64,000 nucleotides of DNA. Origin: Halichondria panicea. Lineage: Eukaryota; Porifera; Demospongiae; Suberitida; Halichondriidae. The stretch is from NCBI RefSeq assembly GCF_963675165.1, contig NC_087377.1, positions 10,526,632-10,590,631 of the forward strand, read 5' to 3'. The notes beneath the pieces are model-generated. The model saw only the letters and a program-made list of their open reading frames with translations, was not told where the DNA came from and searched no databases. The position numbers were made by a program, and so were the translations under genes. Positions 5,282-64,000 of this stretch are shown here, in pieces (positions within the stretch are counted from its first letter, which is position 1; every line of letters starts with the position of its first letter).

Positions 5282-6589
5282 ATGCAGAGAAACGCAATTG
5301 TGAGCATGAATATTCTTGTGTTCACCCTTTTTAAGTGGTTTCTTTGTTGGGAGATTGCATCTACATCTGAAGCATACGCCAAAACAGTTGGTAAGTGAAA
5401 TGTCGATGTATATATCTGTGATCATGTACGCATGTGCATGTTCATGCATATATATGTTGGTCATTCCATGTTTACATAGTTTTCCTCCATATGCACCAGA
5501 AAACCTTTTCACTGATTCTCAAGACAGGACTATAATCTCGTTTTTAAGGGATGAGGTTGAATTTATTTGCAATAGTGATTGTCTTTTATCATTTTGGATC
5601 ATCAATGACCTGTACTACTATCGAAATAACCCATTACCAGAAGGATATGTTTTTCATTATCCTTCTACATTGATTGTGGATACTATTGCTGCATCAGTGA
5701 ATAGAACAACGTATCAGTGCGTTGCCTGTAATACTTTAAGTTCTACACTTACTCTACATTTACAAGGTAATGATCACGTCTCATCACAGTGCATGCATAT
5801 AATGTTAAATTTAAATGCATGCCTGTTGTATAATCATATCATCATTGTGCAACTCACATGCAGAAAGAAATGGCATCAGTACAACATTTCGAAGCTACTA
5901 CCAAACAACTTCACATTTATCCGAGTCAACAATAATACCTAGAGTACCAATTAGTTCTGGATTTGGTTCGACCAGCAATATTGAGCTAGCTAGATCTATA
6001 TCATTGAGGCCAAGCTGTAAGTTTGTACGTTTTTTGATTGTGATGACCGTGAATTTAAATAAATTCACATGCATAATTATAGTTACAGTAATTCGGCAGA
6101 GTACTAGATCTACTGCACCTATAAGATCTAGTAATCATCAGAATGCAAGTCAAAGAGTAAGCACAACACTAACGTGCTCAGGGAGGTGGGATTGCCAATT
6201 TCATAACGAAACTTTTTCCGGTAAGACATAATTACATGTACACAGTGCATGTTAATCATTATTAATCATAGGGATTGGATTGATTGCTGGCACAATAAGC
6301 TCTGCAATACTCATATTTTGCACGTTGTCATGTCTAGTAACAATAAAAATTTACCGCAAAAAGAAAGAAATCCCAAATGGTAAGATAATTATGTTGTTTC
6401 GATATAATTACGATTCAGTACAATACAGACTTAACAGAGAAACATGTATATGAAGAGCTGCAATTGCCGGAAGTGTCAGAGCCTGTCTACTGTGAAGTCC
6501 AAAATATTACAAAAATGACTGAGAACGAGTGTTATGGTGGATCGAAGCGTAATGAACTTCACATTGAATCATGTCCAGCATATCAGTGA
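5282..6589 (+). CDS. Ig-domain transmembrane receptor with paired tyrosine motifs in its tail
   Basis: Six exons: 5282-5390, 5500-5766, 5864-6016, 6089-6220, 6272-6379, 6438-6589. Every intron is phase 1 with GT/AG borders, and the sum is 921 nt, 306 residues plus stop. Residues 1-30 form a signal peptide (hydrophobic NILVFTLFKWFLCW). Residues 37-125 are one Ig-like domain (EFICNSDC, SFWIIND, then TYQCVAC). Residues 126-220 are a Ser/Thr-rich stalk with a small cysteine motif. A membrane helix lies at about 222-245 (GIGLIAGTISSAILIFCTL), followed by YRKKK. The tail has Y261-EEL and Y274-CEV separated by nine residues, close to an ITAM (YxxL/I x6-12 YxxL/I), plus Y289. The gene converges on the 6848-8515 gene. 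Likely a cell-surface receptor signalling through SH2 proteins; the ligand is unknown. A second in-frame ATG (5306) could also serve as start. Confidence 0.85.
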
Positions 6590-6847
6590 TATAATTATAA
6601 TAATTATATGTATCACACTTCACTTGAATCATGTATAATGATTTTAACCCATGCATGCATGCACACTGTGTGCAACAGCATGGGTTGTCTGGTGCATGTA
6701 GGTGTGCATTTTATAGATGTAACAGTATAATTATGATTTTGCTTAGCACATTCCTTTCGTTCCTTTCATGTCCTTCCCTCAATGAATTTCTTTCACACTA
6801 TAACACAAATTTTTATCAATTTGAAGTCACAATAACTTAACTAAAAT

Positions 6848-8515
6848 CTAAAACGAGATTAGAAGACTCACAATGAGAATTTGTATGCCAAATGAATGTA
6901 GAGAATTTCTTCCATTCTTTATTTCTGTTCCAACGTGAAACTTTTGTGAAGCACTACTTTTGTTTGGAGAGCATAGATTGTTTACCTCACTGAATAGAAA
7001 TACTTTAAGTGACTCTACTAGGTAGAGATTTTCAAAACAAATTAGTTTTTTTGGTCCGTAATATTTAACAGTAAACTCTGCTGAGCGATGCCCCACACAA
7101 GGACATTTAGGCATTGCCATATTCGAATTTTGTGGTATGTAACAACTACAATCTTCATTTGATCCTGGTGTCATTGCCCAGAGAGACATTAATGATTCAT
7201 TTGCAGGAATTGACAAATTGGTCGATAAACAGTATTTTCCTCCTTTGTTCACCTGGACAATAACCTGCTTCCCTATATGAAACAGAGTAGAAAGATGGTG
7301 AACATGCACTGTATATATATATGCACTACTAACCTTCAAATCGAAACTCTAGCTTTGTAGGAAAAACCGTTTTATCAACGTCATCGATACGAATAAACTT
7401 GCTCCTATCATCTATTATTGAATTAAACACATGTGGTCCAAACTGACATTTGGTTTCATTGGTTTGATTGGGTCTATATACGCTCCAAAATGAACCAGCA
7501 TTGCACTCTATAATTTCACATTTATAGGTACTCGTTCCATTAACTCCGGGGGGGGGTTGCCAAGAAAATTCCACTCCATCTTGTGTATAACGAAATAATC
7601 TTGATACTAGCTTAATCGGAGCAAGTGAGAAGGTGCGGAGCATCAATCCTGCAAGGGAATTATTTTTCTATAAGTCTGACAGGGTCTACATGGATTATTG
7701 GCACTCAAAACGCTCTATTTAGCATGCATGCAGGAGCAGCTATATGAATTAGCTACAGTGGAACCTCCATTAACGACCCCCATGCATAATGGCCAAGAGC
7801 TCAGGTCCGGATTGAAACTACAATGACTTCAATGTAAAGCAACCTCTCAGGAACGGCTACCTCTCTATACTATAATGAGCAGCTTAATTTCTAGTCCCCC
7901 AATCAGCTTTAGCAATGGAAAATAACCTCCCAGAACGGACAGCCACACCCATAAATTATTTTTCGGAGATAGCATTGTTTTGCATAACCGTGAAAACCTT
8001 GTCCATAGATATCTATGGCTTGTCCCTACAGCCTTTTTCAAAGCTTAAATGAGCTAAAGCGGCAGTTAGCAAAGCTCGTTCAAGATTTATTTGCAGCAAT
8101 AAATGACTCCTTAGAGCATATAATTTATACATACAGCTGGCAATCGAAAACTCCCAAGGAAGACCACCTCTCTATAACGACCAAAAGGTTGTTCCCCAAT
8201 GGTGTCCGTTTTATGGAGATTCCACTGTATAGTATAAGTATAGCATGCATGCATAAAACAATCATGACAGCACTGATTCATGCATGCAGAGACCAGAGTC
8301 CAATTGAACAGCTAGGTTATACACATTCTTATGTGAATTATATGATATCTACAGCTCTATATAATTATACAGATATACAAATGAATTCATAGCTACATGC
8401 AGCTCTATCCTAAATCATGATAATATATAGCCTAGATTCTATATAATTATAATTATAGTCCATAACACTTACCTAAAAGAATGGCGATGAGTAAAAACTT
8501 GCTGCAACTAGACAT
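6848..8515 (-). CDS. secreted or GPI-anchored protein with an FN3-like plus cysteine-rich module
   Basis: Three exons: 8473-8515, 7334-7648, 6848-7272; introns phase 1, total 783 nt, 260 residues. The start ATG at 8515 opens a signal peptide (SSCSKFLLIAILL). Exon 2 (residues 15-119) is FN3-like, starting with IKLVSRL and carrying a PPPG turn encoded by a run of nine C that could slip. Exon 3 is cysteine-rich (SLWAMTPGSNEDCSC, CPC, LICFENL). The last ~20 residues are hydrophobic (GIQILIVSLLISF) with no tail, which suits a GPI signal. The same two-domain module occurs in exons 4-5 of the 38162-41293 gene (VKLISRL; VMWPTHPKSDDDCIC; RICWKNL), so the two genes are related. The long first intron (7649-8472) holds a TA-flanked MITE. 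Function is unknown; presumably a surface-bound partner or decoy form of the receptor family. Confidence 0.8.
7756..8227. mobile_element. pogo/Tigger-like MITE in the first intron
   Basis: Terminal inverted repeats CAGTGGAACCTCCATTAA... and ...ATGGAGATTCCACTG, flanked by TA on both sides, about 470 bp. No transposase. TA target duplication and CAGTRGAACCTC-type ends are characteristic of Tc1/mariner-pogo relatives. It lies wholly inside the intron at 7649-8472. Confidence 0.75.
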
Positions 8516-8604
8516 AGCTGTATAATATTATAGCAAGAAGAAAAGGAAATTACTTTTTTTCAAGGCCTTTTAAGTATACGTAGGGCGTACTGGTATGTTC
8601 GGCG

Positions 8605-9667: not shown

Positions 9668-9739
9668 TAGCCTCGAGACCAGGCCGATTAAAATACGCCG
9701 ATTAAAATACGTATTTTAATCGGCCTGGTCTAGAGGCTA
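9668..9739. mobile_element. TAGNCTCG fold-back MITE, 72 bp
   Basis: Palindrome starting TAGCCTCGAGACCAGGCC with an internally repeated GATTAAAATACG unit. Flanking 9-mers GATGCAAAG and GATACAAAG match at 8 of 9 positions. Confidence 0.85.
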
Positions 9740-10752: not shown

Positions 10753-11192
10753 GTGAGTTGTGTGGAGTAAACATAATTATACTCAGCTCAGGTAGGTGCA
10801 GGATTAAATTGAAGGTGAAGTGTACTGTATACAATTCAGATAATATCTTGACAATAGTACCTTAATTATTTCACCCAAAATGTATTGTGGACATAAATAC
10901 CATTAATTTAATAACACTATTACCATGGTTACTATAATTGATGATTTTATGCATACATTTCACAATGACAAGGTAATTATACTATTTATGGCACTGATCT
11001 TAATAATTATGCCTTAACCTACCTGAGTAGCTAGCATTCCGTGCCAAGCCAAATGGCCGGTATATCGAGGTGGCCGTACTTCAGAGAGCCGGAATAGCGA
11101 GAGTCTACTGTATACTCAAATTTTTCTTTTATACATGCAGCTCAGATCGTGTGCCACCATCCCAAACCTCACTGTGTAGCAGAGCAACTACA

Positions 11193-11747
11193 ATGACCGT
11201 CTATGATTCATATTTAGGATTGGGCACTGTTCTGCTTTTCATCACGTACACTACAGCTAAAACAATGCACTTGAATATGAGCTTTGAAGGTGACACAAAA
11301 GTGGAGATGGTAAAGGAATCAGTTAACGTCGGAGATACTGTAGTGCTCATGTGCATCACTGATGCAATTCCGATTTGGAAAATCAACAGTAACTACTACT
11401 ATTGGAGGGATGTTCCTGACAACCATTTGTTTGACTTCAAAAACAATACTTTAACAATTTCGATAGAACAAAGTCTAGCTGCAGCATTGTCAGGCTGCGA
11501 CAATATAATATTATATCAGTGTATTTATGGCATATTCCAAAGCAAAAAAGTGCCACTAAGGATGCCAGGTAAGTAGTAATTGTTTTTAAAATATGCTCAA
11601 CTTTTATTTCTATAATAATTATTATATACAGATCCTGTGCCACCATCGCAAACCTCGCTGTGCAGCATAGCAACTAAAATGACCGTCTTTGATTCCCAAT
11701 ACCTGATTTTACTGACAATAATAGAAATTATATTTCATATAGTATAA
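11193..11747 (+). CDS. single-Ig-domain surface protein with C-terminal hydrophobic anchor
   Basis: Two coding exons, 11193-11568 and 11632-11747 (phase 1, 492 nt, 163 residues). Residues 1-22 are a signal peptide (YLGLGTVLLFITYTTA). Residues ~30-125 are one Ig-like domain: VGDTVVLMC, IPIWKIN, a TLTISIE strand, then LYQCIYG. Exon 2 encodes a short spacer and ends with a hydrophobic stretch (YLILLTIIEIIFHIV) and no tail, so the product is probably GPI- or tail-anchored. Exon 2 is itself a tandem copy of the leader plus signal-peptide region: 11143-11215 and 11631-11703 are close in DNA, and both read through PSQTSLC then TMTVYDS or KMTVFDS. The signal peptide has in effect been reused as an anchor. 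Single-domain size and neighbours suggest a member of the local Ig family. Confidence 0.72.
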
Positions 11748-12707: not shown

Positions 12708-12719
12708 TACTATATCTAT

Positions 12720-26639: not shown

Positions 26640-26849
26640 GCAATGGCATTCCAAGTAAGCAAAACTAGGTAACTCGAGAACAAAGCATTATTTTGCAAAT
26701 CAACGAATTAAAATCCAAGAAAACATGACTAGAAGCCTATAGAAACTCTTACTTGCACTTCATTGATCCTTGCGCAGCTGTAGCAGTCCACACACACACA
26801 CACACAGAAATACAATACATCACTTGCGCATGTGCGCTGAGGCATAATG
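26640..26849 (+). repeat. microsatellite-bearing interspersed repeat (copy 4)
   Basis: The copy-B counterpart of 1945-2182. The CA run has shrunk to about 8 units (26790-26807). Confidence 0.7.
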
Positions 26850-37394: not shown

Positions 37395-37494
37395 GGTTTT
37401 ACAGGACTCGGTTTTTTGGACGACAGGTTCTGAGTGGTCTTGACTGGCAAAGGATGTCAAAAATGTAAATGTCAAAAATGTAAATGTTAACACA

Positions 37495-38161: not shown

Positions 38162-41100
38162 CTACTGAAAATTAATGAAGCGGTTTGGGTTCAAATTTCT
38201 ACGACAATTGCGTACGGCAAATGAAAACAGTACAATGAAAACAATAAAGACAATTAGTAAGATGGTCCCGATAGGTACACTCAAAGAGAGGATGAGCGTC
38301 AACTTCGAAGAGTCTTCTGCAGATTAAGATAAATTATGTCAATTTATTATAACCCCCGTACACCCATACATGCATGCATGCAACTGGAACAAATTCATTA
38401 ATTAATTAACTTCTCAAGGGACGTTATAAAGCTATCAAGTAAAATTACTAAGCGGGTAATTTTGCATTCTGTTGTTCTATTATATGCGTACCTAGCTATT
38501 CATATAAACGTCAAAGTTATAACAAATGGACAGATTGGACACTCACCTGTGAGTGTAATAGATTGCTGACTTTCTGCAATCAAACAATGCTGTCCAGTAG
38601 TAGAAGACATCCATTCAATTGATACCCCATAATTAGTCCCTGGCATTAGATCCATAATGGAAATATTGAACGGTTGATTAACCGCACAACGCAGATCAAA
38701 GGATGTGCTTGCATTCTTACAGGTGCTGCCACAGTTTGAGAGTTGAGTTGATTTTAGAAAAACATTTGATATCTCGTAGTCCTTTAAACTTAAACAGCTG
38801 AAATGTATGGTTACTATGATTTCATCATATGTAGTATAGCTGATGTTGAATGTTAGGTTCACTGTATTGGTATTGGTCAATACATTAATCATATATATAC
38901 TTGCTATAGGACACTTACCTTTATCTTGTAGGCACTGACATATGGTGCCATTTTTTTGACCTGTATATATACCAGCATTATTATTAATCTATACGTGCAT
39001 GTTACAAAGTTAATAACGCACCCTGGAAAGTGCTTGGTTCGGATTGAACACACTGACTAAACGCTGTCATGTTTACTTGAAACGGTGCACAACTCTGCGG
39101 TAGGTCATCAAGTTCCAGGCAGAAGTTTGATTTCAGTATAGCACGATCAAGAATGGTATCACCTGTGGCATCATTTACCACCACTACTGTTCCTATCACA
39201 GGACTCCATTCTTCACTTTCGGATGTAGCGCATACAGAGTTATTGCTGCTGTTATATGTAAGATTTGGTGGATACTGGGGACCTGCATGGACATTTTATA
39301 TTTCATGTCATAACAATTATAGTCACACTAAGCTCTTTATTTTACCAACCTTGCACTATAATTCTGTTTTGACTTTCGATCACTCTCACATCAGAGTTAC
39401 CAATTAGTTCTTCTTTAACTAGCAGTATTTTTGTGTCATTGCTATCACGATCAAGATTCTTCCAACATATCCTGTCATTGTCTTGTAGCTCGATGTTATA
39501 AGTTGTAAGATTAAATACAAAGCAATAACAGCTTTTAAATGTGGGTCCAAGCTCCCTCTCCGCAAATACAGGACAAATACAGTCATCATCAGATTTCGGA
39601 TGTGTCGGCCACATGACACGTAGATCATTTTTATTTTCTGGTAGGTAGACACAAGATGTCTGACCTTCAGGTATGCAGGTGTTGTTGGTAGTCTCTGTAT
39701 ATGAAAATCAAGGACAGGTCAAAATTTATCTTTCTTACCATTTACATCTGTTCTGTAGAGATACCCAAGCGTTGCAAAGGGTTCATTGTCTCCATTGGTA
39801 AAATTCTTTGCATATGTTGTACCATATGCGTCAATGTCTTGAAAATGCTTGCTTGGTATCGAAAAAATAGGCTCCATGACATTTGAAAGATCATCCCATA
39901 GTATAGTGCCATATTTAATCACGTCGGTGATGAAAAATATATCAGGTTCTGCACCTAAACTGGTACTGTCCACCTCTGATTGGATTTTGAATCCAAATTC
40001 CTTATAGGCTAAAGTCAGGTTCACCAATCGGCTGATAAGTTTAACCCTGGCTGTGTTTGACTGACTGTATACAGCTGCATGCACTATAATGAATATAATG
40101 TAATTATACGGACTATCCATGCACGACTCTGATATTTGCTGTCGTGCATAAAAATGTACTGTATATACGTATTGACTTACAGGTTTCGTTATCTTTTGGG
40201 ATACTCGGTCGTAAAGAAAGGGACACTGTGTACAGCAGCCCAATGCTGTTGTCAACTGTGGTGTAGCATTCATATACAGTGCCTGTTGTGCTGCTCATTG
40301 CAGGATTCACAATGATCCCACCATAGTGCTTTGAATGCCAACGAGGAAGCTCCGTTACAGGATAGATAACTCCATCAATCCTCCATAGTGTCACAGCGTG
40401 CGTTCCTATGGCTGGTACGCAAGGTAAAAATATCACATCGTTCTCTGTAGCTTGGAAGTTAAGTCCCCTATCAATGTTTAAGTCCGTCTTCAGCTGACCT
40501 ATAGTCCCTATGTGCATGTATATACATTATTATAGATTGCTTTTTATGTTCGCATGCATGCAATTGCTATTTTTGCGTATATAGCTGTAATTTCCGGGGG
40601 ACAGAATATTCGTTGTTTTTGTGGTTGGAGCTCTGACCACGAACATTTTACCCACGAATGAAGCGATCTTGCCTAAATATGTTGCTCAACCACAAATGTT
40701 TTGCCCCCCCCCCCTCGAAATTACCGGCTATAATTATGATACGGTATTACGTACTTATAAGTTATGAGCCAGATATAATTATTTATAAACGCATTATTTG
40801 TGCATATAATTATTATGATAGTACCTGATGAGTGATCACTTTCAGAAGGAATCACTACCAAGTGATTGGAGTACAGTTGCTCAAGGTTTGACATACTGTA
40901 AGTATAACAATTGTAATCACCAACATCTTGAAGTGAGACATCTCTTATAAATAAGCCACTTGACACTCTTTGTAGCTGATTAGGCAAGCTTTCCACAGTA
41001 AAAATGACATCATTCACTTCCCAAACAATTGATAGACTGCTTGCAAGTGGGTAACTACAAGGCAGAAAAACACTATCTCCTTCATGGCTGACCAAAGTCA

Positions 41101-41293
41101 GTTCAAAAGAGTTGCTCCCAAAGCATGGAATTGCCAACCATAGAATGCCTGCAAAAATGTTGCATGCATGCATGGAACAGTAGTAAAGTCAGTTTCTACA
41201 TTCAGTTGGCTGCATGCCTGTATTCTGCTGTTACAGAAAAAACTTACAGATCAGCACTCCAATGATAGTCTGTGGTTTCCTGTGTTTAGGCAT
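38162..41293 (-). CDS. Ig/FN3-domain type I transmembrane receptor, 735 residues
   Basis: Eight exons: 41248-41293, 40825-41148, 40181-40507, 39739-40074, 39350-39694, 39022-39282, 38547-38960, 38162-38316. All introns are phase 1 and the sum is 2208 nt. Order: signal peptide (exon 1 into 2); V-like Ig domain (FLPCSYP, IVWEVND, DVGDYNCYT); second Ig-like domain (FLPCVPA, TLWRIDG, VYECYTT); FN3-like domain (VKLISRL); cysteine-rich domain (VMWPTHPKSDDDCIC, RICWKNL); FN3-like domain; FN3 domain (DLMPGTNYGVSIEW); membrane helix (TILLIVFIVFIVLFSFAV); and a short basic tail (RNCRRNLNPNRFINFQ) without tyrosine motifs. A possible 15-nt 'intron' at 38904-38918 is too short and the frame reads through it. 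Likely an adhesion or recognition receptor. Its near-identical duplicate is at 61336-64000. Confidence 0.87.
40582..40730. mobile_element. MITE in the second intron of the receptor
   Basis: Imperfect hairpin with ends TAGCTGTAATTTCCGGGGG and ...CCCTCGAAATTACCGGCTA, with CACGAA/TTCGTGG inner arms and a long C run. The same insertion is in the duplicate (63768-63916), so it predates the duplication. Confidence 0.65.
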
Positions 41294-43768: not shown

Positions 43769-45110
43769 ATGAATGTGCAGGCCGGTGCATTTAGATCCTT
43801 ACCATGATGATCACACATGCATACAGCTATATATATAGGGTGGTAGATTTAATATGCTCGAGATATTATCTATACAAAAAAATGATTATGCTATTCTTTT
43901 ATGCTCAAGTTAACAGCCTATATTTGCCTATTATATTCCCACATTATTCCTCAAAAGTACAACATAGACCCCATGTCATCGTACAAGTAACATTGAGCTA
44001 TAAATAATGGCCACAGGACTCGTTATTAACACTAGAATGCTATAAGGAGATAATCAACTACAGTGGAACCCCTCTATAACGGACACCTTTGAGGAACAAT
44101 GTTTTGGCCTTTAATATACAGAGGTGGCCTTTGTTGAGAGGTTGTTTTTTGTACACAAACTGTTCATTTGGGACCTGTCACCTGGGTTCCTGGCATTTAT
44201 ATATAAGTTTCACTGTACCATGCATGCAGTACATACTTTCATCAGGATTTGTTTTTACTATTATTTATTTGTACTGACCTGCATGTATTAAGTCTTCCAA
44301 AACCTGCCTATCATTCTCATAAAGGCCAACATTAAGCCAGCACAATTCTCACCAAAAATAATGTGCCTAATCAACTAACCCCTATACATGCAGCTATACA
44401 TGCATCATAAGTTTAAGGTTAATCACAACTTACAACTGCTGTCACTGACACACAGTGGATAAATTTTTTTGCACGGGTATATATCCATTTAGCCGGCATT
44501 ATATACTTATGCTGGCTTAAATAGATCATTATATAGTTTGTGTACTCAGTTGTTCAGCTCTTTGACTGTAGTATAAGCTTCATTTACTTCCATATGAATT
44601 GGATCTTTGCTTGCTTCCATTCCGATGAACACCACCTTATTCAATATTTGGTCGTACACTGGTTCAGGTAAGTTAGGTTCCTCGTAGATATGCAGAGAAT
44701 TGCCTATATCATACAAAGTAAGGTGGTTATTATTATATATATATATACAGGCCCAGTTTTTAAACTATAGCATGCAGTATATGTATAATAGTTACAATGA
44801 AACTAGTCTCGCAAGCTAGCCGCTACAAAAATGATAGCCCAATACTAATGAAATATACACCAAAATGTGGTCGTGTCTGATAAATCGATTAATCAGACAA
44901 AATAAACAGACACAGGAACCTACAGATCACTGAAGAGGCAGAGCCACAAGATTTAAGGTGCTTTTGGTCGCTAAAAGTCTCCCCTACAACACATTTTTGG
45001 AGGTTATATAATAATGTTGTTAATATAGGTAGACCTATTGTCGGGTGAAAATCAGCTTGTTTCGCCTATCCGTTCTCCTCCGGCAGCTGTCTGATTATAC
45101 GTTCTGTCTG
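43769..45110. other. intergenic, MITE only
   Basis: No convincing gene. Includes the pogo-like MITE at 44061-44215. A minus-strand block at 44530-44700 (ACTTACC-like border at 44665, FDCSI-type frames) could be a stray exon, but I cannot join it to anything. Confidence 0.35.
44061..44215. mobile_element. pogo/Tigger-like MITE, 155 bp
   Basis: Starts CAGTGGAACCCCTCTATAAC and ends ATAAGTTTCACTG, with TA on both sides. No coding sequence. Confidence 0.65.
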
Positions 45111-45124
45111 ATAATTGATACTTT

Positions 45125-45350
45125 ACTCTACCAACTGCCAACTAGATCTACCAACTCCCAACTGCCAACTCCCAACTATACCAACCAACTACCAACTACC
45201 AACTATATACCAACTCCCAACTGCCAACTATACGCGTTTGAACTATCAAGTAGCAAGTGCGAACTACCAACTACGTGGTTGAACTATATCAAGTAGCAAC
45301 TACGAACTACCAACTCTACGCATTTGAACTATCTGAACTATCAACTACGA
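45125..45350. repeat. (CCAACTA)n-like minisatellite
   Basis: Irregular tandem CCAACTA/CCAACTGCC units for about 110 bp, then looser TACGAACTACCAACT units to 45350. The open frame over it (PTPNYTNQLPTTNYIPT-like) simply translates the repeat. Confidence 0.85.
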
Positions 45351-45497
45351 GTAGCACTCAGGGCCACCGTAAAGCTACACTACACTGCACTTGCAGCTGA
45401 AGTGGTCCCGTACTAGGAAAAGGGTCACTAAAGTAGAAAGCTAGAATCGTGACTGGTCTGGATCCTAACACCAAGCGGAAGGAGCCATACTTCTCTA

Positions 45498-47347
45498 TAG
45501 CCTCGAGACCAGTCTTTCATTATCTGAAAAGAACGCCTATTATTCTAGGTCAGCACAATAGCATTAACAGTGGATATTGTTGGACTTCAATCTCATTGTG
45601 TCTGTTTAGTACGTGCAGACTATACCAGCTGGTCAAGTTCCAATGTAGAACTCGTTTAGCTGAGTCAGCGAGTGATTAGGCTTGATGATTGCGGTAACAG
45701 CAAACTGACACAACAAGACAATGAATAACTCATTGCCTTTCCTGCTAGCTGCGGTTACAACAGCTAGTATCTGTGACGTAGGTCTGGAGGAATGCCTTTT
45801 GTGTGTATTGGGTGGTGATAAAACAGGGAATAAGGAAATGAGAAATGAGAAACAAAAAATAGGAAATGAGGAAACAAGAAATAGGTTATGATCGTCAATG
45901 ATTATGACATTTTTATAATATTATAGATACGCAAAAGTAATGAACTGATATCAGCCAAGAAGCTAGTATAGGTGACTAAGTGTTTAGAATTAGTTGAGTC
46001 AAGTATATATAGTAGCTAGCACTGAAAAGTTTCATCGGCACCTCCACACAGTCTTTGTCGATACATTGTAGGAATTAAGTTACCATCACTTCAGATGACA
46101 CAGTGAGCTTTCTTTCATTAAAGTAGTATCAGCCTTCACTATAGGCATTGCTTGTGTATGGTAGTGGGAATTGCTTTCTTCACCCAGAAACTGAACCCTG
46201 TACGTAGCGAGATCAGATACCAGACCGTGTACTACCAAACCATGTCATTACTTCCTGCAGCTTTACGACAGGACTGGCAGACTAGAAATTGCTTGGTTTG
46301 ACAAACAGTATTGGAAGTTTCTTTGCTGCTACATGTAGATGTTGACATTGAGTCCAGTCAATTGACTATCACTTGCTCACCAGATTGTGAAAAATCGGTA
46401 AATGTATTGCCAGTATAGAGAAGTTAAGGTAGAGGGTATCACACCGTGTACCAGTTAGTATGCATGCCTGTATAATGCCATGATGGCAGAAGAGCCGACC
46501 AGTAGCTAAGTATAATTTATGCAAGCTTGTCTTCAAACTTGCTCAGAATTATTCTTGTTTCTCATTTCTGTTCTCATTTCTGTTCTCATTTCCTTATTTC
46601 CTATTTCTTATTCCTCATTTCCTCATTTCTTGTTTCTTATTTCCTCATTTCCTATTTCTTATTTCCTCATTTCTTGTTTCCTTCCCTCATTCCCTGTTTT
46701 ATCACCACCCCAGTCTATTGGAGTTGCGTACTCTTCCTAATGAACTCTTGGTCTATACCAGTGGCAGATCCAGAGGGGGTTCTTTTGGTTCAATTGAACC
46801 CCCTTTGAGAAAGAAATGAGTGGGAGGCTCAAGCAACTAGTTAGCAAGTTGTTCCTTTCTTACTAGCTTTCACATGCACTTCTCACTTACCTTTAGTCCT
46901 TGTTAGTCCTATAAAGCTTTGTCTGTGTAGTTTCAGTGACTATGAAGGCTAAAAACTCTCCAGCGTAGTGCATGCAGATTGCTTATGAAAAGTGATGACC
47001 TTTTTTAGGAAAAAATTCGGTGTGTTAATGCGCATGCTCACTGTTTCGAAGAAGTGACTACCTTTTTTTAGGTAAAATAACAGTCCTTGCACTCGCTCAG
47101 AGCCCTGGAACCCCTCTTTCAAGAATTCTAGATCCACCACTGTATACTATATAGCTAGCTGCACGTTGCAGTAAGCATCACAATGATATTCACGGGTAGT
47201 TATGGTTGTTGCGAGCAATTATCAGTCCAGGACCAATTAAAATGCAATTAGACAAGTTCTATACATTGGAACTAGCCTTGATTCAAGGCCGACATTGGAA
47301 CTTGACCAGGCGTTCTTTCAGATAACAAACGGCTGGTCTCGAGGCTA
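45498..47347. mobile_element. TAGNCTCG transposon, 1850 bp, with internal insertions
   Basis: Ends TAGCCTCGAGACCAGTC...GGCTGGTCTCGAGGCTA, with arms similar to the 296-bp MITE at 13235-13530, flanked by identical 9-mers ACTTCTCTA. Inside are an inverted pair (TTGGGTGGTGATAAAACAGG at ~45810 and its complement at ~46697, with complementary GAAATGAGAAA/TTTCTCATTTC tracts) and a hAT-like MITE at 46759-47142. No transposase seen. Confidence 0.92.
46759..47142. mobile_element. hAT-like MITE nested in the 45498-47347 element
   Basis: Ends CAGTGGCAGATCCAGAGGGG and CTAGATCCACCACTG, characteristic of hAT elements. The flanks share only TATAC of an expected 8-bp duplication. No transposase. Confidence 0.75.
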
Positions 47348-47691
47348 ACTTCTCTAAGACTGTGATCATGCATGTACCACTAAAAGTTTTAGCATGCCTC
47401 TTGAGTTTACTCTGGTTTTGCTAGGATTAGATAATTATATCACTCTTCTGGTTTCTTTATAATCATGTCACCAGCCGAGAGTTTGCACTCTAGTGCTGGT
47501 GCTCTAGAGCCTCTATAATAATAACTCAAGCCTCAAGGAAAAAGATTTAGTTTTTACTATGCCCTTGTCTCGACTCCAGACTTGCAATTGATCGTAATAA
47601 GTGAGTCTGCAATAGTTTGGGGGCCAGACCTAATAGCTCGGGGGCAAAATCAAGTAAAGCTAGGATTTAATAGGTCTGGAGCAGAGGAGGT

Positions 47692-48102
47692 TGGTCATGA
47701 TTTAAACCGCGGTGAAAAGTGCTATGCAAACCCATGTTTGGCCTCTCCTCCAACCGTCTTCAACCCGCTGAGTCAGCACTTTTGTCTCCTTGCATTCCTG
47801 AGCATTTATCCTCTCTTGTATTACATCTCTTGCTAGTTTATGAATTGTAGTAGTGTAAGCCTATCATTGAAGACAGGAGTCAAAGAATCAAGGAAAGTAC
47901 TATTAGTTTCTGGCTCATTGATTCGGGTATGACTCGTTTTTTAGTGTGACTGGGTATTGTTAGCATCATCTGCTACTAGTATAGAGTGTTACAATCGTTT
48001 AATTGCAGCCGTCTGGCTTTAGCTATAGGACAGCAACTTTTCATGCTTTCCTCTTCTCCGTGCACACACATTCCTCCGTTGAAATGTGAACAACCTCCTC
48101 TG
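47692..48102. mobile_element. CAGAGGAGG-ended MITE, 411 bp
   Basis: Same family and interior (AAACCGCGGT, AACCCGCTGAGTCAGCACTT) as 20817-21132. Flanks GGTCTGGAG and GGCCTGGAG match at 8 of 9. Confidence 0.88.
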
Positions 48103-48128
48103 GGCCTGGAGACTCTTGCAGCATTTCC

Positions 48129-48261
48129 CAGAGGAGATCCGATATGCGTGCACGAATCATTACAAGTTCAGTGCATTGTGGCAGGACGTTATCATGTGAC
48201 TGCAATGACCTCAATGCACTGAACTTGTAGTGTTTCGTGCACGCATGTCGAACCTCCTCTG
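48129..48261. mobile_element. CAGAGGAG-ended hairpin MITE, 133 bp
   Basis: Starts CAGAGGAGATCCGATATGCG and ends CGAACCTCCTCTG. Arms carry GTGCACGAA and CAAGTTCAGTGCATTG. Flanks AGCATTTCC and AGCAATTCC match at 8 of 9. Confidence 0.85.
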
Positions 48262-48501
48262 AGCAATTCCGTGTGCTCTAGCGGAATGTGCATGGCCAGA
48301 GCCAATGAAATGCATATCCTATGTCATATGATTTTTAACCCAATGAAATGCGAGTATTGCCTCTGTGGAATTTGGATTACAGCCAATGGAATTTGGATAC
48401 AGCCGGAGTATTGCTACATCTACTCCTTCTTTATAACGTCTAATATCACAAGTCTCTACATTCCAAGAGCACACGGAAGTGCTGCAAGAGTCTCCAGACC
48501 T

Positions 48502-49384
48502 CTTTCTCCTCTTCCCCCTCCCCCCTCTGAAAAAAGGTCTGGCCCGCAGACTACATCTGCAATACGTAGGCATCCTGTGGCTTTGTTGCCTGTCAGGCTC
48601 CGCCCATCTACTGACTGCCCACGTTCATTTTCACTGTGCCACCGTCAGCGAGGCAGGCTCTCTCCTTTTTCTTAACAACGGTTAGTTCTCTCTTTCTTGT
48701 TCCTCCAACTTCCCATATTTTATCTTATTGACCTGTGACAAAACGGAAAAAGGAGAGGCTGCGAAGGAGGCTACTGCTGACGTGACATTATAGATACAGG
48801 AAAAGAAACAGGAAAGAGAGGGATTGGCAACAAAAGTGCCTCGAATAGCCATCCGTGTTTCCCTGTGGTTTAATCGAGGCCGCCTAATTCAACGTTAGAA
48901 AAATGGCCAAAGACACAAAAAAGAGACAAACGATTGTTTTACTGTCAGTATAAGAATTTTACTGCTTAACTGTTTTATTACAGGGTACACTACATAGTTA
49001 AGCAGTTCTAGCTATATTATAGTAGTAGGAGGTACATAGCGTCGCATGTACCTCGCGTCGCATGTACCTCTAGCTACTTCACAACAATCGAAATTATGTT
49101 TTTGTCGTATCTAAATGATGCCTACAAGCAAGTCGAATAGAAGTGTTTGGGGGGCTTGGAAAGGTCTGTATTTACTGTAAAAGGTTAATTATTGTTCTAC
49201 CGCGTTAGGTGGGAAACACAGATGCATGGCTCATCAAGTTCTGTATTGATTTTATGTGTAGCTTATGAGTGCACGTGATTCGTTGCCAATCTCTCTCTTT
49301 CCTGTTACAGTATCTATATGCATGGTGACATGCAGCTATATATTTTAGACTTGAACTTTTGGCATACATTATTTTTAACAACAA
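48502..49384. repeat. intergenic, inverted repeats, no gene
   Basis: Contains a pair of inverted segments, 48795-48830 (CAGGAAAGAGAGGGATTGGC) and 49284-49312 (GCCAATCTCTCTCTTTCCTG), likely the ends of a ~520-bp fold-back element, and a 16-bp direct repeat of GCGTCGCATGTACCTC (49040-49070). No coding exon recognised. Confidence 0.5.
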
Positions 49385-49816
49385 TCATGGGGTCGATCAT
49401 TACCCACTCTTTTAGTTCTGGATTCTGCCTGCATGCAGCAAAATTAATTATAATGCATCATGATAATTATAATGTTTGTGCTATTAGTAGCTTTATGTTA
49501 TGTAGCTTGGCACCTCCACAGAGGCATCAGCACCCGCGGTGTTTTCATTATAATTATTGGCCCTCCTACATTATTTATAATTATGCCACAATTATACTGG
49601 CATGCACTGCTATTCCTTTGATCTCAGATGTCAAAAGGCAACAAATATGCATCGTATAGCGTGTATATTTCGAGTGTATAACTGTTTGTGGTTTTTCCCT
49701 GATTAAGCATGTATATGTATATACTGCGAACATTTTATACCCACGAATTTAATGTCGCATGCATGCTGCAGAAAGGCTCCTATTCAAACCACAAAAACCT
49801 TTCTTAACGGTCATTC

Positions 49817-50863
49817 CTAACTGCTATACGGTATGTAGGTGTATATACTGTATATATATGCATGCTTACCAGTTTTCTGTCGGGCTTTGCATTTCTTGCA
49901 TTTAAAGGCAATGAATAGAGTTACTGGAACTACTGTGCTTAGAATTCCAAGAGAAGATCCAATCCCTCCAATAACGACATCTGTATTAAAAGTATTATAG
50001 TGCGTGGCAATAATTGTATAGTTTCTTACAATTATATAGATCAATTTCTCCGTCTGGTCCTAGATTCACTGTATTGCATTGTGTGCTGTATTTATTGTGT
50101 TCTCCTTTACTCTCAAGCCTTAATCCAGTGTTTCCTACAAAACATATCAAGGTGCATGGTATTTGTCTTTAATTAGTGAAAAATATGGCGAGGGAAACAC
50201 TGCATGAAACTAATAATTCAAAGCGATCAATAAAAATTTAGAGAGTTCTAAGTAGATATCTTTACCTGTGAAGGATATCGATAATTCAGGTGAATTTTGG
50301 GCCATGAATTGACTTTCAGTTCTGACATTAAGTCTTGTTGTTGGAGTGTAATCGATTATATCATTGTCTAAAACATACACAATTCCTATAGTACTGTACA
50401 TTGACCCAATAACACACTGAATGTTAGTGAGATTCATTGACGTGGCAACTTTAGTGATTTCCAAAGAAGAAAGTTGTGAATTAAAATGATATGGTGGCGG
50501 TAAGTATGAGTGTGGATATATTACACTATCAATAATCCACGAAGGTGCATCATGCCTTTCTTCTTGGCAATCACAACCAAACCAAGCGGAGTCTCCAGAA
50601 AGCACATGTATGTTAGTAGGCTGCGATCTAAATGTACATGATCCTGCAAAATAGCAGCAACACAATCAGTGTACACATAGAGAGACACCTTTTACTTTAT
50701 CACTCCATGCATGTTATTCACATGCAGCTGTAGCTAATGTTATAATTATCTCTTAATCATACATCGTGTCGTATTCCTTACTGAAAACATTTTGCTTACC
50801 TTTTACTCCACATAGACATAATATGTGTGATAGTAACAGCAAAGCGTAAGTGACTCTCATCAT
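49817..50863 (-). CDS. single-Ig-domain transmembrane protein
   Basis: Four exons: 50800-50863, 50266-50643, 50030-50134, 49817-49980; phase 1 introns; 711 nt, 236 residues. Signal peptide (VTYALLLLSHILCLCG). Ig-like domain in exon 2 (SAWFGCDC, PSWIIDSVI, SSLEITKV, NIQCVIG). Exon 3 is a 35-residue spacer with one cysteine. Membrane helix (IGSSLGILSTVVPVTLFIAF), then KCKKCKARQK. The tail ends in a tyrosine-rich stretch (HAYIYSIYTYIPYSS) read from a TATATA simple repeat. A GT..AG pair at 49848-49869 would make a 22-nt intron, which is too short, so I read through it. Another tail exon further left cannot be excluded. A TATA box lies at 50929-50934. Probably a small surface receptor of the local family. 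Confidence 0.78.
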
Positions 50864-50888
50864 AAAGACCAACCACGCTAACGATATT

Positions 50889-53394: not shown

Positions 53395-55547
53395 GAAACT
53401 CACCATTGGCGTACTCTTTGATAGGGTGCTCTCATTTGAGTTGTTAGGTCAATAGATGCTTCTCATGCAGACACGACAGATCAGACATCGTTACGGTCAC
53501 TACTCAAGCTGGTCTGTAGACACAGGTGCTGTCTATTGTTCCCACCAGGGGGACTGTAGTTGTGGGGCATGGACTTGCTACTCGAGTGAAAGTCACTAAT
53601 CTTGATAGTTAAGTTATCATTATGCATGTCCACGACTGTGTCGAGATTAGAGCCACTGACACTGTTTTGAGTGTAATTCAGTTTTGTTATGGAGGAAGAG
53701 AGAAAGTTGGAGTAGAGGGGAGAAGAGATGCCTTCTCTCGTCATCAAGGGGGTTAGTGGGGGAGAGCGTACGAACAAGCCGGCTCTACGAAGCAGGTTAG
53801 AACTGTAGAAATGAGTCAATGCATCTACTTAATCCATGCTGCTTTCCATGGCCAAGTCAAGTGAAGATGGTCGTATTCCACGAGCAGTGATAGCTGCATG
53901 TACATGTGTGTATACATGTGTGGTAGGGGGAGATTAAAAGCTTAGCTGGAGTTTGGTAGCACTATATAGGCATGCACTCTTGTAACATTGATCCATAATT
54001 ATTTACTATATACACAATAGCATAAACCAGACTAGGAAATGCATATGGGACTATTTTCAATTTAATGGCTATAACGAAAATTTAGCTCATTTTGTAGTAA
54101 AGCATCAAGCACCAACTGCGGTGAGGTATAATATACGATTGAGCAAAAACAGAAGCCTGTCTCCGTTCAGTCTCGATTGTATAAACTGATTAAATCTCTA
54201 AAGAAAACCAATTAGAACTATAGGTATAAGCAATCACTTTTGGGAGAGAGTGGAAAGTCAAAACTGTACACACACTCACCAATTTTCCTTCCTTCTTCCT
54301 ACAAACTGCTATGATCACTGCCAACAAGCAGCATTCCTCCCACCACTGCGGCAATGATCACAGAGATGATAATTATGCTCTATGAGAAAACACAACATAA
54401 TTTCTATACACATACAAGTTTCAAAAGAACAAAAATGTTATAGAAGAAACTTATAAAAATGTTATGGTGAGAGAAAAGGTGTGCATAGTGTTGACAAATG
54501 CACTGTATTTTAATCGAACTCACGATACTCAATTACATTATTACATTATTAAAGAAGGACGATACCCTTTATGGTAGATTCTACTGCAAGAGGCAGTACG
54601 TAACTTTATGGACTAACCCATAATTACTCAGTGGGTTCTGACAACCACTAACCTGATAAAGAAGTAGCCAAAGTCGCATGTATGGTGGTTGTCCAATAAT
54701 TGATGAGCAGTGCCTGACTGTGTACTCCGTATCAGGATTAAGATTTGTTATAGTTAGCTCCCCGTCTGGCACTTCCACTGACAAGATGATGAAGGGGTCT
54801 CCATTTCGCAGAACCTGGGGAATGTGATTAGAACTAAACCGGTAAAGATCCTTAATTTCCTATTAAGTTGACTTTAGTGTGTCTGTCTTTTATCAACCGA
54901 TGTTGAGGCATTGTCTACGTGAATTCATAACGTTATCACATCTTTAGTGCCTATCGTAAAATTAAACCCCAAGAATTGCATTCCAAAATGGTAAAACTCT
55001 AAGATTTGTCATCAAATCACTCGCTCCCTCCAAAAAAAGGCCGAAAGTCTTCATACCGCCACATCTCTACTACTAAAGCTAGAAGCTGCGGAGCAATGTC
55101 TATATACTTAATAAGATACCCACATTGAGTGAACAGTATAAATTACATTGGTATAGAGATTGTAACAACAATATCAAATTTTAAGTGGTTGCATGCATTT
55201 CACCCTCTCACCTTTGTTCTCAATTATCCCCACTTCGCTAAACGGTCCATCTCCCAGCTCACTCCTCCCAACCACTCTAACCTCTGCACTCTTCTCCAGT
55301 CCAGCTAGCTTCAACACAACACTGTATTCAGTATCAACACCACTGGTATCATTCCCCTCCATGGAGATAATAAAGTTAGAGTCATTGCTAGCGATAACAA
55401 GTTGTCCAGGTGAGGTGAGGACAGCAGATTGAGTATAGTTGATGATGAAATGTGTTATGGGACTTGAGCCTTTCTTGATAGAGAAGCTGAGAGTGTGGTA
55501 GCCACTGGACTGAGTTACTGTCAGTAAAGATGGCGGACTGGGAAGGG
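53395..55547 (-). pseudogene. FN3-domain receptor, probably decayed
   Basis: Pieces in order on the minus strand: 55212-55547, an intact FN3 exon (112 codons, phase 1: LPSPPSLLTVTQSSGYHTL, SPITHFIINYTQ, SEVGIIE); 54653-54814, the second half of another FN3 domain (GELTITNLNPDTEYTVRHCS) with acceptor and donor but phase 0, which does not join the previous exon; 54280-54379, a membrane exon (SIIIISVIIAAVVGGMLLV) in which a lost base pair or two brings in TAG before the basic RKKEGK; and 53481-53800, an open 112-codon tail-like frame with no tyrosine motifs I trust. No start exon was found. A degraded second copy of the 54470-54830 block lies at 55567-55860. Related to the relic at 18765-19465. 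Confidence 0.55.
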
Positions 55548-55566
55548 CTGGAGAGAGAGGTGTGCA

Positions 55567-55900
55567 TAGTGCTGACATATGAACTGTATTTTATTCAGTC
55601 TCATTCACGGTACTCAATTACATCACCAAAGGAAATGTTAAAGGATGATATCCTTTTATGATAGATTCTGCTACAAGAGGGAGTTTAAAGTAACTTCATG
55701 GACTAACCCATAATTATAGTAAAGCACTCAGTGGGTTCTGGCGACCAAAGTCTCGATCTTGCATGCATGGTGGTTGATATCCGATACTCATAGCATTGAT
55801 GAGTAGTGCACTGACTGCGCGCGCGTACTCCGTGATAAGTAGGTTTGCACGGAAACGTGGATAGAACTAAACGGGTAAAGATCCTTAACTTCTCTATTAT
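55567..55900 (-). pseudogene. degraded tandem copy of FN3-gene sequence
   Basis: Matches 54470-54830 (GTGTGCATAGTG.TGACA, ACTCAATTACAT, GATAGATTCTGCTACAAGAGG-like, GGACTAACCCATAATTA) but lacks a readable FN3 frame. Confidence 0.6.
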
Positions 55901-60703: not shown

Positions 60704-61009
60704 GGTTTTACAGGACTCGGTTTTTTGGACAACGGGTTCGGAGTGACTGGCAAAGGATGTCAAAAATGTAAATGTCAAATGCAAGGCCAGTCTACATTCA
60801 CAGGGTAGATCTATAATCATAATCATTAGATTGAAATACTTCACTTATAATTGCCAGGTCTTACTCCCTTTAAGATTCATTGCCCTTTTTATACTGTTCT
60901 AGTGTGTGTATTAACGTTGGTTATAGTTATGAATAATTAAATTGGCTCGTAAAATTATAAAATTATGTTTCATTATAGATACTAGTATAGCCAACATTTT
61001 AGTGTACAT

Positions 61010-61275: not shown

Positions 61276-61335
61276 GGTTCTAGGATGTAAAGTGTTTTAA
61301 TAAGCAGTGTAAAATAACTATATTTATAATTATAG

Positions 61336-64000
61336 TTATTCCGTTTCTGAAATATTAATCGAGCGTTTTTTTGCTTTCAAATTTTTACGACAATTGCGTA
61401 CGGCAAATGAAAACAGTACAATGAAAACAATAAAGACAATTAGTAAGATGGTCCCGATAGGTACACTCAAAGAGAGGATGAGCGTCAACTTCGAAGAGTC
61501 TTCTGCAGATTAAGATAAATTATGTCAATTTATTATAACCCCCGTACACCCATACATGCATGCATGCAACTGGAACAAATTCATTAATTAATTAACTTCT
61601 CAAGGGACGTTATAAAGCTATCAAGTAAAATTACTAAGCGGGTAATTTTGCATTCTGTTGTTCTATTATATGCGTACCTAGCTATTCATATAAACGTCAA
61701 AGTTATAACAAATGGACAGATTGGACACTCACCTGTGAGTGTAATAGATTGCTGACTTTCTGCAATCAAACAATGCTGTCCAGTAGTAGGAGACATCCAT
61801 TCAATTGATACCTCGTAATTAGTCCCTGGCATTAGATCCATAATGGAAATATTGAACGGTTGATTAACCGCACAATACAGATCAAAGGATGTGCTTGCAT
61901 TCTTACAGGTGCTGCCACAGTTTGAGAGTTGAGTTGATTTTAGAAAAACATTTGATATCTCGTAGTCCTTTAAACTTAAACAGCTGAAATGTATAGTTAC
62001 TATGATTTCATCATATGTAGTATAGCTGATGTTGAATGTTAGGTTCACTGTATTGGTATTGGTCAATACATTAATCATATATATACTTGCTATAGGACAC
62101 TTACCTTTATCTTGTAGGCACTGACATATGGTGCCATTTTTTTGACCTGTATATATACCAGCATTATTATTAATCTATACTTGCATGTTACAAAGTTAAT
62201 AACGCACCCTGGAAAGTGCTTGGTTCGGATTGAACACACTGACTAAACGCTGTCATGTTTACTTGAAACGGTGCACAACTCTGCGGTAGGTCATCAAGTT
62301 CCAGGCAGAAGTTTGATTTCAGTATAGCACGATCAAGAATGGTATCACCTGTGGCATCATTTACCACCACTACTGTTCCTATCACAGGACTCCATTCTTC
62401 ACTTTCGGATGTAGCGCATACAGAGTTATTGCTGCTGTTATATGTAAGATTTGGTGGATACTGGGGACCTGCATGGACATTTTATATTTCATGTCATAAC
62501 AATTATAGTCACACTAAGCTCTTTATTTTACCAACCTTGCACTATAATTCTGTTTTGACTTTCGATCACTCTCACATCAGAGTTACCAATTAGTTCTTCT
62601 TTAACTAGCAGTATTTTTGTGTCATTGCTATCACGATCAAGATTCTTCCAACATATCCTGTCATTGTCTTGTAGCTCGATGTTATAAGTTGTAAGATTAA
62701 ATACAAAGCAATAACAGCTTTTAAATGTGGGTCCAAGCTCCCTCTCCGCAAATACAGGACAAATACAGTCATCATCAGATTTCGGATGTGTCGGCCACAT
62801 GACACGTAGATCATTTTTATTTTCTGGTAGGTAGACACAAGATGTCTGACCTTCAGGTATGCAGGTGTTGTTGGTAGTCTCTGTATATGAAAATCAAGGA
62901 CAGGTCAAAATTTATCTTTCTTACCATTTACATCTGTTCTGTAGAGATACCCAAGCGTTGCAAAGGGTTCATTGTCTCCATTGGTAAAATTCTTTGCATA
63001 TGTTGTACCATATGCGTCAATGTCTTGAAAATGCTTGCTTGGTATCGAAAAAATAGGCTCCATGACATTTGAAAGATCATCCCATAGTATAGTGCCATAT
63101 TTAATCACGTCGGTGATGAAAAATATATCAGGTTCTGCACCTAAACTGGTACTGTCCACCTCTGATTGGATTTTGAATCCAAATTCCTTATAGGCTAAAG
63201 TCAGGTTCACCAATCGGCTGATAAGTTTAACCCTGGCTGTGTTTGACTGACTGTATACAGCTGCATGCACTATAATGAATATAATGTAATTATACGGACT
63301 ATCCATGCACGACTCTGATATTTGCTGTCGTGCATAAAAATGTACTGTATATACGTATTGACTTACAGGTTTCGTTATCTTTTGGGATACTCGGTCGTAA
63401 AGAAAGGGACACTGTGTACAGCAGCCCAATGCTGTTGTCAACTGTGGTGTAGCATTCATATACAGTGCCTGTTGTGCTGCTCATTGCAGGATTCACAATG
63501 ATCCCACCATAGTGCTTTGAATGCCAACGAGGAAGCTCCGTTACAGGATAGATAACTCCATCAATCCTCCATAGTGTCACAGCGTGCGTTCCTATGGCTG
63601 GTACGCAAGGTAAAAATATCACATCGTTCTCTGTAGCTTGGAAGTTAAGTCCCCTATCAATGTTTAAGTCCGTCTTCAGCTGACCTATAGTCCCTATGTG
63701 CATGTATATACATTATTATAGATTGCTTTTTATGTTCGCATGCATGCAATTGCTATTTTTGCGTATATAGCTGTAATTTCCGGGGGACAGAATATTCGTT
63801 GTTTTTGTGGTTGGAGCTCTGACCACGAACATTTTACCCACGAATGAAGCGATCTTGCCTAAATATGTTGCTCAACCACAAATGTTTTGCCCCCCCCCCC
63901 TCGAAATTACCGGCTATAATTATGATACGGTATTACGTACTTATAAGTTATGAGCCAGATATAATTATTTATAAACGCATTATTTGTGCATATAATTATT
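61336..64000 (-). CDS. Ig/FN3-domain receptor, duplicate copy, cut by window end
   Basis: Duplicate of 38162-41293 at a constant offset of 23186. Exons present: 63367-63693 (second Ig), 62925-63260 (FN3-like), 62536-62880 (cysteine-rich), 62208-62468, 61733-62146 and 61336-61502 (membrane and tail). The signal-peptide and first Ig exons lie beyond 64000. All splice sites and frames are intact. The first four exons listed encode the same protein as the left copy, whereas 61733-62146 has replacements (Gly to Glu in PGTNYEVSIEW, Ser to Pro, Arg to Tyr). The tail differs and is four residues longer (RNCRKNLKAKKRSINISETE). Probably a functional second receptor; the changed domain and tail could alter binding and anchoring. 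Confidence 0.85.
63768..63916. mobile_element. MITE in the receptor intron (duplicate copy)
   Basis: Same insertion as 40582-40730, at the same offset. Confidence 0.65.

Follow-up and report, generated by a model that had tools for sequence, protein, structure and literature searches.

The window analysed (64,000 nucleotides of Halichondria panicea DNA) is, by its sequence, for the most part well described as a small, still-duplicating cluster of related Ig-type surface receptor genes, two of which appear to have matching signalling tails. Five Ig-type genes were found, A and A2 on the + strand and B1, B2 and E on the - strand, with models obtained by ORF and splice-site analysis of the sequence alone. 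They quite likely belong to a multigene family that is specific to the lineage, evolves by birth and death and encodes type-I membrane receptors of the immunoglobulin superfamily, here putative Ig contact receptors. Each gene would encode one or two homologous N-terminal Ig domains in separate phase-1 exons, followed by a stalk and a membrane anchor, and the family would turn over through duplication of segments, insertion of repeats and decay. What was computed here is the homology and fold of the Ig domains, the phases of the exons, the presence of a TM-like segment in A, B1 and E, the similarity between the A and E tails and the duplication of B. The genes and related features, with positions in the window, are as follows.

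Gene A, 5282..6589, + strand: signal peptide exon 5282-5390; Ig exon 5500-5766; stalk exon (5864 or 6089)-6220, with two alternative starts; TM exon 6272-6379; tail exon 6429-6589 with tyrosine motifs YEEL and YCEV.
Fragment C, 7667..6851, - strand: two adjoining exon-like ORFs resembling B exons 3 and 4, in order.
Gene A2, 11193..11747, + strand: Ig exon 11193-11568; terminal exon 11632-11747, whose C-terminus is hydrophobic.
Companion block of the B1 duplication unit, 35858..37476: Brambleberry/KAR5-like sequence on the - strand; copy at 59102-60779 beside B2.
Gene B1, 41173..38162, - strand: signal peptide and Ig1 41173-40825; Ig2 40507-40181; exon 3 40074-39739 (or from 40083); exon 4 39694-39350 (Cys-rich); exon 5 39282-39022; exon 6 38960-38547 (FN3-like by eye only); TM exon 38316-38162 with a short basic tail.
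Gene E, 50863..44546, - strand: signal peptide 50863-50800; Ig 50643-50266; stalk 50134-50030; TM 49980-49870; tail exon 44703-44546 with YEEP, YDQI and YTTV, after a 5166-base intron.
Remnant D, 55747..54469, - strand: one FN3-like exon (55547-55212) flanked on either side by phase-1 sites, next to a decayed sequence that is partly duplicated.
Gene B2, 64000..61330, - strand: second B copy; exons 2-7 readable and open, 615 aa.

Repeats and transposon-like pairs were plentiful in the window; no RNA gene was detected in it at Rfam gathering scores, and no tRNA.

Leave-one-out HMMs recovered the held-out Ig domain in five out of five cases among the 2162 six-frame ORFs of at least 20 aa (E values of 1.4e-6 for A, 2.6e-4 for A2, 8.5e-7 for B Ig1, 2.2e-9 for B Ig2 and 1.7e-7 for E), the best ORF outside the Ig set reaching E 0.28 when the B2 copy of B Ig2 was left aside. 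The held-out domains scored 17.8-34.2 bits, and in 10 shuffled sets of ORFs the full profile reached at most 10.0 bits. Since all five were recovered and outside ORFs and shuffles were far weaker, the Ig domains are homologous beyond chance. The core cysteine, tryptophan and cysteine were invariant in the alignments of all five, at 16-26% identity to the first row of each alignment; these two cysteines and the tryptophan, together with the Ig fold, place the domains in the Ig superfamily. Against the PDB, the Ig profile matched carcinoembryonic antigen (8e-9), contactins (6e-7 and weaker) and Fc-epsilon receptor alpha (8e-5), and B Ig1-Ig2 matched contactin-2 (E 4.6e-9). B1 was the sole gene with a Pfam Ig model above cut-off (Ig_2, 1.3e-7, and ig); gene A matched Ig_2 below it (E 0.0057), no Pfam Ig model exceeded the cut-off in A2, E or B Ig2, and A2 had no Pfam match of any kind. 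Structure prediction, by which the initial annotation had proposed to check the Ig folds, gave an Ig sandwich for E's Ig exon, the one exon of this type covered by AF2 and Foldseek (pLDDT 82.7, pTM 0.75; 208 Foldseek matches at E<=1e-3). Titles among the 50 listed of these 208 matches were mostly those of antibody or TCR complexes and of proteins with Ig domains, the latter including Robo, PTPdelta/LAR, titin and Dscam.

The phase-1, exon-per-domain structure previously described for these genes was confirmed: phase 1 was the top-scoring joint at 14 of 15 introns, within search ranges chosen after the models were drawn, the exception being the B Ig1-Ig2 joint, where phase 2 scored higher. Several acceptors were weak, such as those at 6429 in A (2.2 bits with a generic matrix) and at 40507 in B (2.1 bits). 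For the A stalk, 5864-6220 gave the better joint score, and 6089-6220 was used for the protein model and the Pfam scan. In E, the TM-tail joint was also phase 1 and no further TM-like ORF with a phase-1 donor was found between TM and tail; the 5.2 kb intron stretch contains repeats, across which the tail was assigned.

The differences in anchoring reported in the initial annotation broadly hold: a hydrophobic TM-like segment is combined with a tyrosine tail in A and E, B has a TM segment and a short tail without tyrosine, and A2 has a hydrophobic end only. Its count of at least five intact Ig genes held as regards five Ig-bearing genes, 'intact' being generous. The model ran from signal to membrane only in A, B1 and E, where the reading frame was open across every modelled exon; none of the three most hydrophobic stretches of A2 was N-terminal, and the first exon of B2, which carries Ig1, lies beyond the window end. 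Membrane anchoring of A2 is doubtful; its terminal exon repeats the gene's own 5' end (11629-11695 vs. 11143-11209, 89.6%) and the model has no cytoplasmic tail.

A tyrosine tail common to A and E adds to what had been noted before, and the two appear similar. None of 2000 shuffles scored as well as the A-E comparison, which gave 2e-4 by phmmer in a set of 15 sequences and 0.003 and 0.009 by tblastn within the window; against all 2162 ORFs the match had E 0.047 in one direction and lay above the 0.05 reporting limit in the other. The spacing of the A tyrosines (YEEL, then YCEV) is ITAM-like, yet the second motif ends in V. A strict ITIM consensus includes a defined residue at position -2, and this residue was absent from all A and E motifs. 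Through their single Ig domain, A and E would recognise a ligand on an adjacent cell or on a microbe; Src-type kinases would phosphorylate the tail tyrosines, to which SH2 proteins would then dock. In B, a long stalk encoded by four unclassified exons would carry the two Ig domains, and because the B tail is short and tyrosine-free, the putative role of this protein would be that of an adhesion partner, a ligand or an adaptor-dependent receptor. We infer surface expression, phosphorylation and contact recognition of these receptors from such features.

No Pfam family scored above cut-off in any of the four B exons 3-6. A profile of exon 4 and C found no sequence match in the PDB at E up to 5, exon 6 had nothing there under E 0.12, and the AF2 model of exon 4 was unusably poor (pLDDT 50.6).

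B1 and B2 are the one recently duplicated pair that had been proposed, with 98.7% identity over 2731 columns and exact identity over 1.8 kb. Bins from 38359 to 40858 were 98-100% identical, some of them at 100%, and the bin before was 95.3%. After the TM segment, the tails (17 aa in B1, 21 aa in B2) differ in sequence and neither contains tyrosine; ahead of the TM/tail exon, coding changes were located in exon 6. No difference was found in the Ig2 exon or in such 5' sequence as can be read, which leans against Ig-focused diversification in this youngest pair, the Ig1 of B2 being outside the window. The companion blocks were 95.0% identical with gaps counted, and 99.1-99.6% of gap-free columns were identical in six bins. 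Sequences to the left of 35858 and 59102 were unrelated (<=43.5% in the first three bins). An assembly artefact could account for part of the B1/B2 pair.

Two decayed FN3 receptors had also been reported. Only D showed similarity to FN3: its Pfam fn3 matches were both sub-threshold (E 0.0015, with 19.2 bits vs. a cut-off of 25, and E 0.061), the best PDB match had E 0.15 and an internal repeat reached 75%. Fragment C, on the contrary, had no fn3 match at E up to 5 and resembled B exons instead; no Ig match was found near it. Its similarity to B exon 4 had a phmmer E of 8e-5 in the set of 15 sequences and 0.012 among the 2162 ORFs, and that to B exon 3 one of 0.02 and above 0.05, respectively; tblastn on the window gave 0.028 and 0.064 for exons 4 and 3. 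Shuffles scored as high as these pairs in 0 and 10 cases out of 2000, as compared to 798 and 474 for the crossed pairs. C is thus probably a B-type fragment.

The organisation claimed initially was borne out, as related and variously anchored Ig receptors with relics, a recent duplicate and two signalling-type tails. Any family of surface receptors with fast turnover should look like this, and the make-up therefore does not single out allorecognition; allorecognition, immunity and adhesion are narrower readings of a birth-and-death family, with overlapping odds. Where tissues touch in Hydractinia, Alr1 and Alr2 bind like alleles and so decide between fusion and rejection. By analogy, polymorphic Ig receptors acting in this way would make the window an allorecognition complex, which we regard as quite unlikely: it would account for a cluster of related Ig receptors with relics, a young duplicate, mixed anchoring and tyrosine tails, but B1 and B2, identical in the Ig2 exon and visible 5' region, are not diversified. 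The Hydractinia complex comprises 40 Alr/Alr-like genes with some potential pseudogenes according to the available part of the source (PMC11876637). Possible, if still on the unlikely side, would be immune-type microbe receptors, in which case the genes would parallel the paired Ig receptors of vertebrates, A and E being the signalling members and B and A2 the tail-poor ones. The multi-tyrosine tails of A and E, the tyrosine-free tails of B1 and B2, the tail-less A2 and the rapid turnover are consistent with this, whereas the motifs fit strict ITIM or ITAM sequences only loosely. Ig-like domains (n = 20) and FN3 domains (n = 7) were treated as immune signalling and effector domains in an Antarctic sponge transcriptome, in the portion of that study available (PMC12723187).

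The top solved-protein sequence matches were mostly adhesion proteins (contactins, CEA), as would be the case for ordinary adhesion or developmental IgSF proteins clustered by chance; this proximity, however, mirrors what has been solved, and Fc-epsilon receptor alpha, an immune receptor, was matched too. Adhesion and developmental IgSF genes usually evolve slowly, and with Ig domains at such low identity in an array that is still duplicating, this explanation is rather unlikely. We give a similarly low probability to a largely decaying, repeat-rich, segmentally duplicated region in which B2 would be an uncollapsed haplotype. C and D are indeed fragments, repeats and transposon-like pairs are abundant, and the high identity of the B1/B2 bins points the same way, but no modelled exon of A, B1 or E has its reading frame interrupted, and the unrelated left flanks and differing tails are not predicted by a simple misplaced allele. 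The boldest version, a sponge Ig-receptor allorecognition or immune complex with a dedicated shared tail, its Ig units propagated and kept alike through duplication and gene conversion, seems to us very doubtful. If true, another non-bilaterian lineage besides cnidarians would have clustered Ig recognition receptors that signal. To our knowledge, the molecular basis of sponge self/non-self recognition is open, and were the locus polymorphic and segregating with graft outcome, it would be a concrete candidate for it. The present value of the birth-and-death family lies in annotation: a related Ig receptor family, a tyrosine tail putatively common to two of its members and a stalk whose four exons are unclassified.

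Compared with vertebrate paired Ig receptors, the cluster has in common related ectodomains, varied tails and anchors, tyrosine motifs and gene turnover; it differs in its loose motifs and in the four unclassified stalk exons of B, and no activating/inhibitory pair with near-identical ectodomains was seen in the window. Likeness to contactin/CEACAM-type proteins, which gave the best PDB sequence matches, is at the domain level only, the architecture of the window's receptors being different. Calx-beta domains are typical of sponge aggregation factors, and none was found in the Pfam scans of the receptor models. As far as the consulted part of PMC11999971 goes, the aggregation factor is a proteoglycan complex located outside the cell, both aggregation factors and the Ig adhesion proteins of sponges are tied to sponge cell adhesion and recognition, and Hydractinia Alr proteins (41 genes) have V-set and I-set domains. 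As in the Hydractinia complex, clustered related Ig-type TM genes and pseudogenes were found in the 64 kb visible; unlike it, there are only five genes here, and the likeness noted is one of organisation. No match named Alr was among the 37 PDB matches of the Ig profile. Among the papers found, titles and abstract openings pointed to none that dealt with this locus or with a cluster of Ig receptors in sponges.

The B1 protein had no pattern match in viral contigs and, with eight pattern stretches, no relative in genome contigs; B had no match in the phage collection (near mode). Three repeat 20-mers, one searched against viral and genome contigs and two against viral contigs only, gave no match either. 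Misses in the viral and genome contigs say little, because these collections exclude animal genomes by design.

A further Brambleberry/KAR5-like ORF was observed at 16700-17419. It had no Pfam family above cut-off and, with 13 pattern stretches, no relative in viral contigs, a collection without animal genomes. KAR5/GEX1/Brambleberry proteins have, according to the part of PMC4291462 available, a signal peptide, a six-cysteine N-terminal domain, a coiled coil and C-terminal TM segments. The ORF (240 aa) contains exactly six cysteines, at 54-128, its hydrophobic piece carries on in another frame, and a putative signal peptide and coiled coil were seen by eye only.

The locus fits a birth-and-death receptor family, because a common Ig family, a common tail, a young duplicate and relics are found together in it. 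Function as generic contact receptors is a well-supported prediction for these genes, whereas the immune or allorecognition role proposed in the initial annotation is a possible candidate. As far as it is visible in the sequence of this one haplotype, the organisation of the locus is similar to that of the Hydractinia Alr family. The cluster is a clean candidate family of an already known kind.

Gene models were drawn by hand from stop-to-stop open reading frames (ORFs) and splice sites, using our own generic animal scoring matrices; transmembrane (TM) segments and signal peptides were called by hydropathy and inspection, without a dedicated predictor. The 64 kb contained no N, and GC content ranged from 36.5 to 42.4% in 4 kb bins. 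The five Ig-type models were:

5282-6589, plus strand: gene A; signal peptide, one Ig domain, stalk, TM segment and tail
11193-11747, plus strand: gene A2; one Ig exon, then a short terminal exon with a hydrophobic end
41173-38162, minus strand: gene B1; two Ig exons, then four more exons, TM segment and short tail
50863-44546, minus strand: gene E; signal peptide, Ig domain, stalk, TM segment, 5166-base intron and tyrosine tail
window end to 61330, minus strand: gene B2, the second B-type gene; exons 2-7, 615 residues open

We infer that the genes are of animal type because they contain introns, have domain exons in phase 1 and encode Ig/FN3-type sequence. When the best donor-acceptor pair for each phase was scored at 15 joints with ORF-fixed frames, phase 1 was best at 14, with search ranges set after the models were drawn; the sole exception was the Ig1-Ig2 joint of B (7.6 for phase 2 vs. 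6.6 for phase 1). The phase-1, exon-per-domain structure claimed earlier therefore holds. The signal peptide of A2 is uncertain, since its N-terminus was not among the top three hydrophobic segments of the protein. A 67-bp sequence is duplicated in this gene (11143-11209 at the 5' end and 11629-11695 in the terminal exon; 89.6% identity), each copy falling at, or immediately ahead of, the hydrophobic part of the corresponding terminus (N or C).

Each of the five Ig domains (A, A2, B Ig1, B Ig2, and E) was removed in turn from the profile and sought in the 2162 ORFs (20 aa or longer) of the six-frame translation. All five were recovered (E = 1.4e-6, 2.6e-4, 8.5e-7, 2.2e-9, and 1.7e-7, respectively), the best value for a non-family ORF with these profiles being 0.28; held-out domains scored 17.8 to 34.2 bits vs. 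at most 10.0 for the full profile in ten shuffled ORF sets. The relatedness of the Ig domains in A, A2, B, and E is more than chance. Support from the curated library was mixed: B1 exceeded the Pfam cut-off for Ig_2 (1.3e-7) and ig (2.7e-6), A fell below it (0.0057), the E Ig exon alone gave Ig_3 at 0.077, and A2 alone and B Ig2 alone had no Pfam match. In the PDB, the five-sequence profile matched, among others, carcinoembryonic antigen (8e-9), contactins and Fc-epsilon receptor alpha. The E Ig exon, the only one folded, gave a confident predicted structure (pLDDT 82.7, pTM 0.75). Foldseek returned 208 PDB matches at E ≤1e-3; the best 50 of these 208 had query-normalised TM-scores between 0.51 and 0.74 and, going by their titles, were for the most part complexes of antibodies or TCRs, or proteins with Ig domains.

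The exon at 44703-44546 resembles the last exon of A, with the common form YEE..LPE..PVY. The match reached 2e-4 by phmmer in a 15-sequence set, just 0.047 and in one direction against all 2162 ORFs, and 0.003 and 0.009 by tblastn on the window; none of 2000 shuffles equalled its score (z 7.0). This exon was assigned to gene E because the TM exon of E is located upstream of it and offers a phase-1 donor; the scores at the joint were 9.1 and 7.2. Between the two, 63 same-strand ORFs of at least 25 aa were found, five with another TM-like 19-mer (mean hydropathy ≥1.6), and none of these five had a phase-1 donor of at least 5 bits. YxxL/I/V motifs occurred in A (YEEL and YCEV) and E (YDQI and YTTV); the post-TM stretches of B1 (17 aa) and B2 (21 aa) contained no tyrosine.

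B1 and B2 aligned at 98.7% over 2731 columns (16 mismatches, 19 gap columns), and were 100% identical, introns included, in the seven 250-column bins that run from 39109 up to where B2 ends. The companion block, the second part of the duplication unit (35858-37476), showed 95.0% identity counting gaps and 99.1-99.6% in gap-free columns of six bins (35936-37370). Between the two blocks about 0.75 kb aligned poorly globally (45-61%), with 203 columns at 97.0% by local search; left of 35858/59102 the sequences were unrelated (39.0-43.5% in three bins), and the cytoplasmic tails of B1 and B2 differed. B2 might possibly be a misplaced haplotype. Taken as the youngest duplicate pair, B1 and B2 differ within exons 2-6 (1681 nt) at six positions, all in exon 6 (five codons, three of them amino-acid-changing), and therefore lack Ig2 diversification; Ig1 of B2 lies outside the window. 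Six of the seven substitutions in 38201-40814 fell within 206 bases of exon 6 (38604-38809 vs. 61790-61995), a clustering seen in 24 of 200000 random draws for a span picked after the data were seen. This pattern resembles gene conversion acting in patches, possibly with a third copy as the donor.

The initial annotation had also described two decayed FN3 receptors, C and D. D retained one FN3-like exon, below the Pfam cut-off (0.0015; best PDB match 0.15). C (7667-6851, minus strand) aligned in order to exons 3 and 4 of B (24 and 23% identity). Matches of C against the whole window were weak (0.012 for exon 4 by ORF search; 0.064 and 0.028 for exons 3 and 4 by tblastn). C is probably a B-type relic rather than an FN3 remnant, since the ordered match outscored nearly all shuffles (10 of 2000 scored as high for exon 3 and none for exon 4) and crossed pairs did not (798 and 474). 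B exons 3-6 matched no Pfam family above cut-off, and AF2 yielded no usable structure for B exon 4.

Several other elements were present. A repeated, intronless-looking ORF with six cysteines and a C-terminal hydrophobic part, which in its architecture resembles the KAR5/GEX1/Brambleberry family of nuclear-fusion proteins, matched no Pfam family above cut-off. Its four larger copies (16700-17419, 28871-29291, 36485-37400, and 59744-60780, minus strand) were all frame-shifted, partial or without an inner part; two adjoin B1 and B2, and a downstream piece lies at 3923-4153. ORFs at 57302-59036 (minus) and 34259-34534 (plus) resemble LINE reverse-transcriptase fragments, an assignment for which Pfam gave no support. 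A MITE-like short palindromic repeat occurred at 4984-5041 and 9668-9739, and a 20-mer of it had no exact match in viral or prokaryote genome collections. A large repeat block (1-4153 vs. 24093-28925) comprised five main pieces in the same order at 81-93% identity. Elements at 31373-32456 and 41507-43760, the latter seemingly interrupted, shared 97.5% identity over 986 columns with inverted ends, and are likely copies of a DNA transposon.
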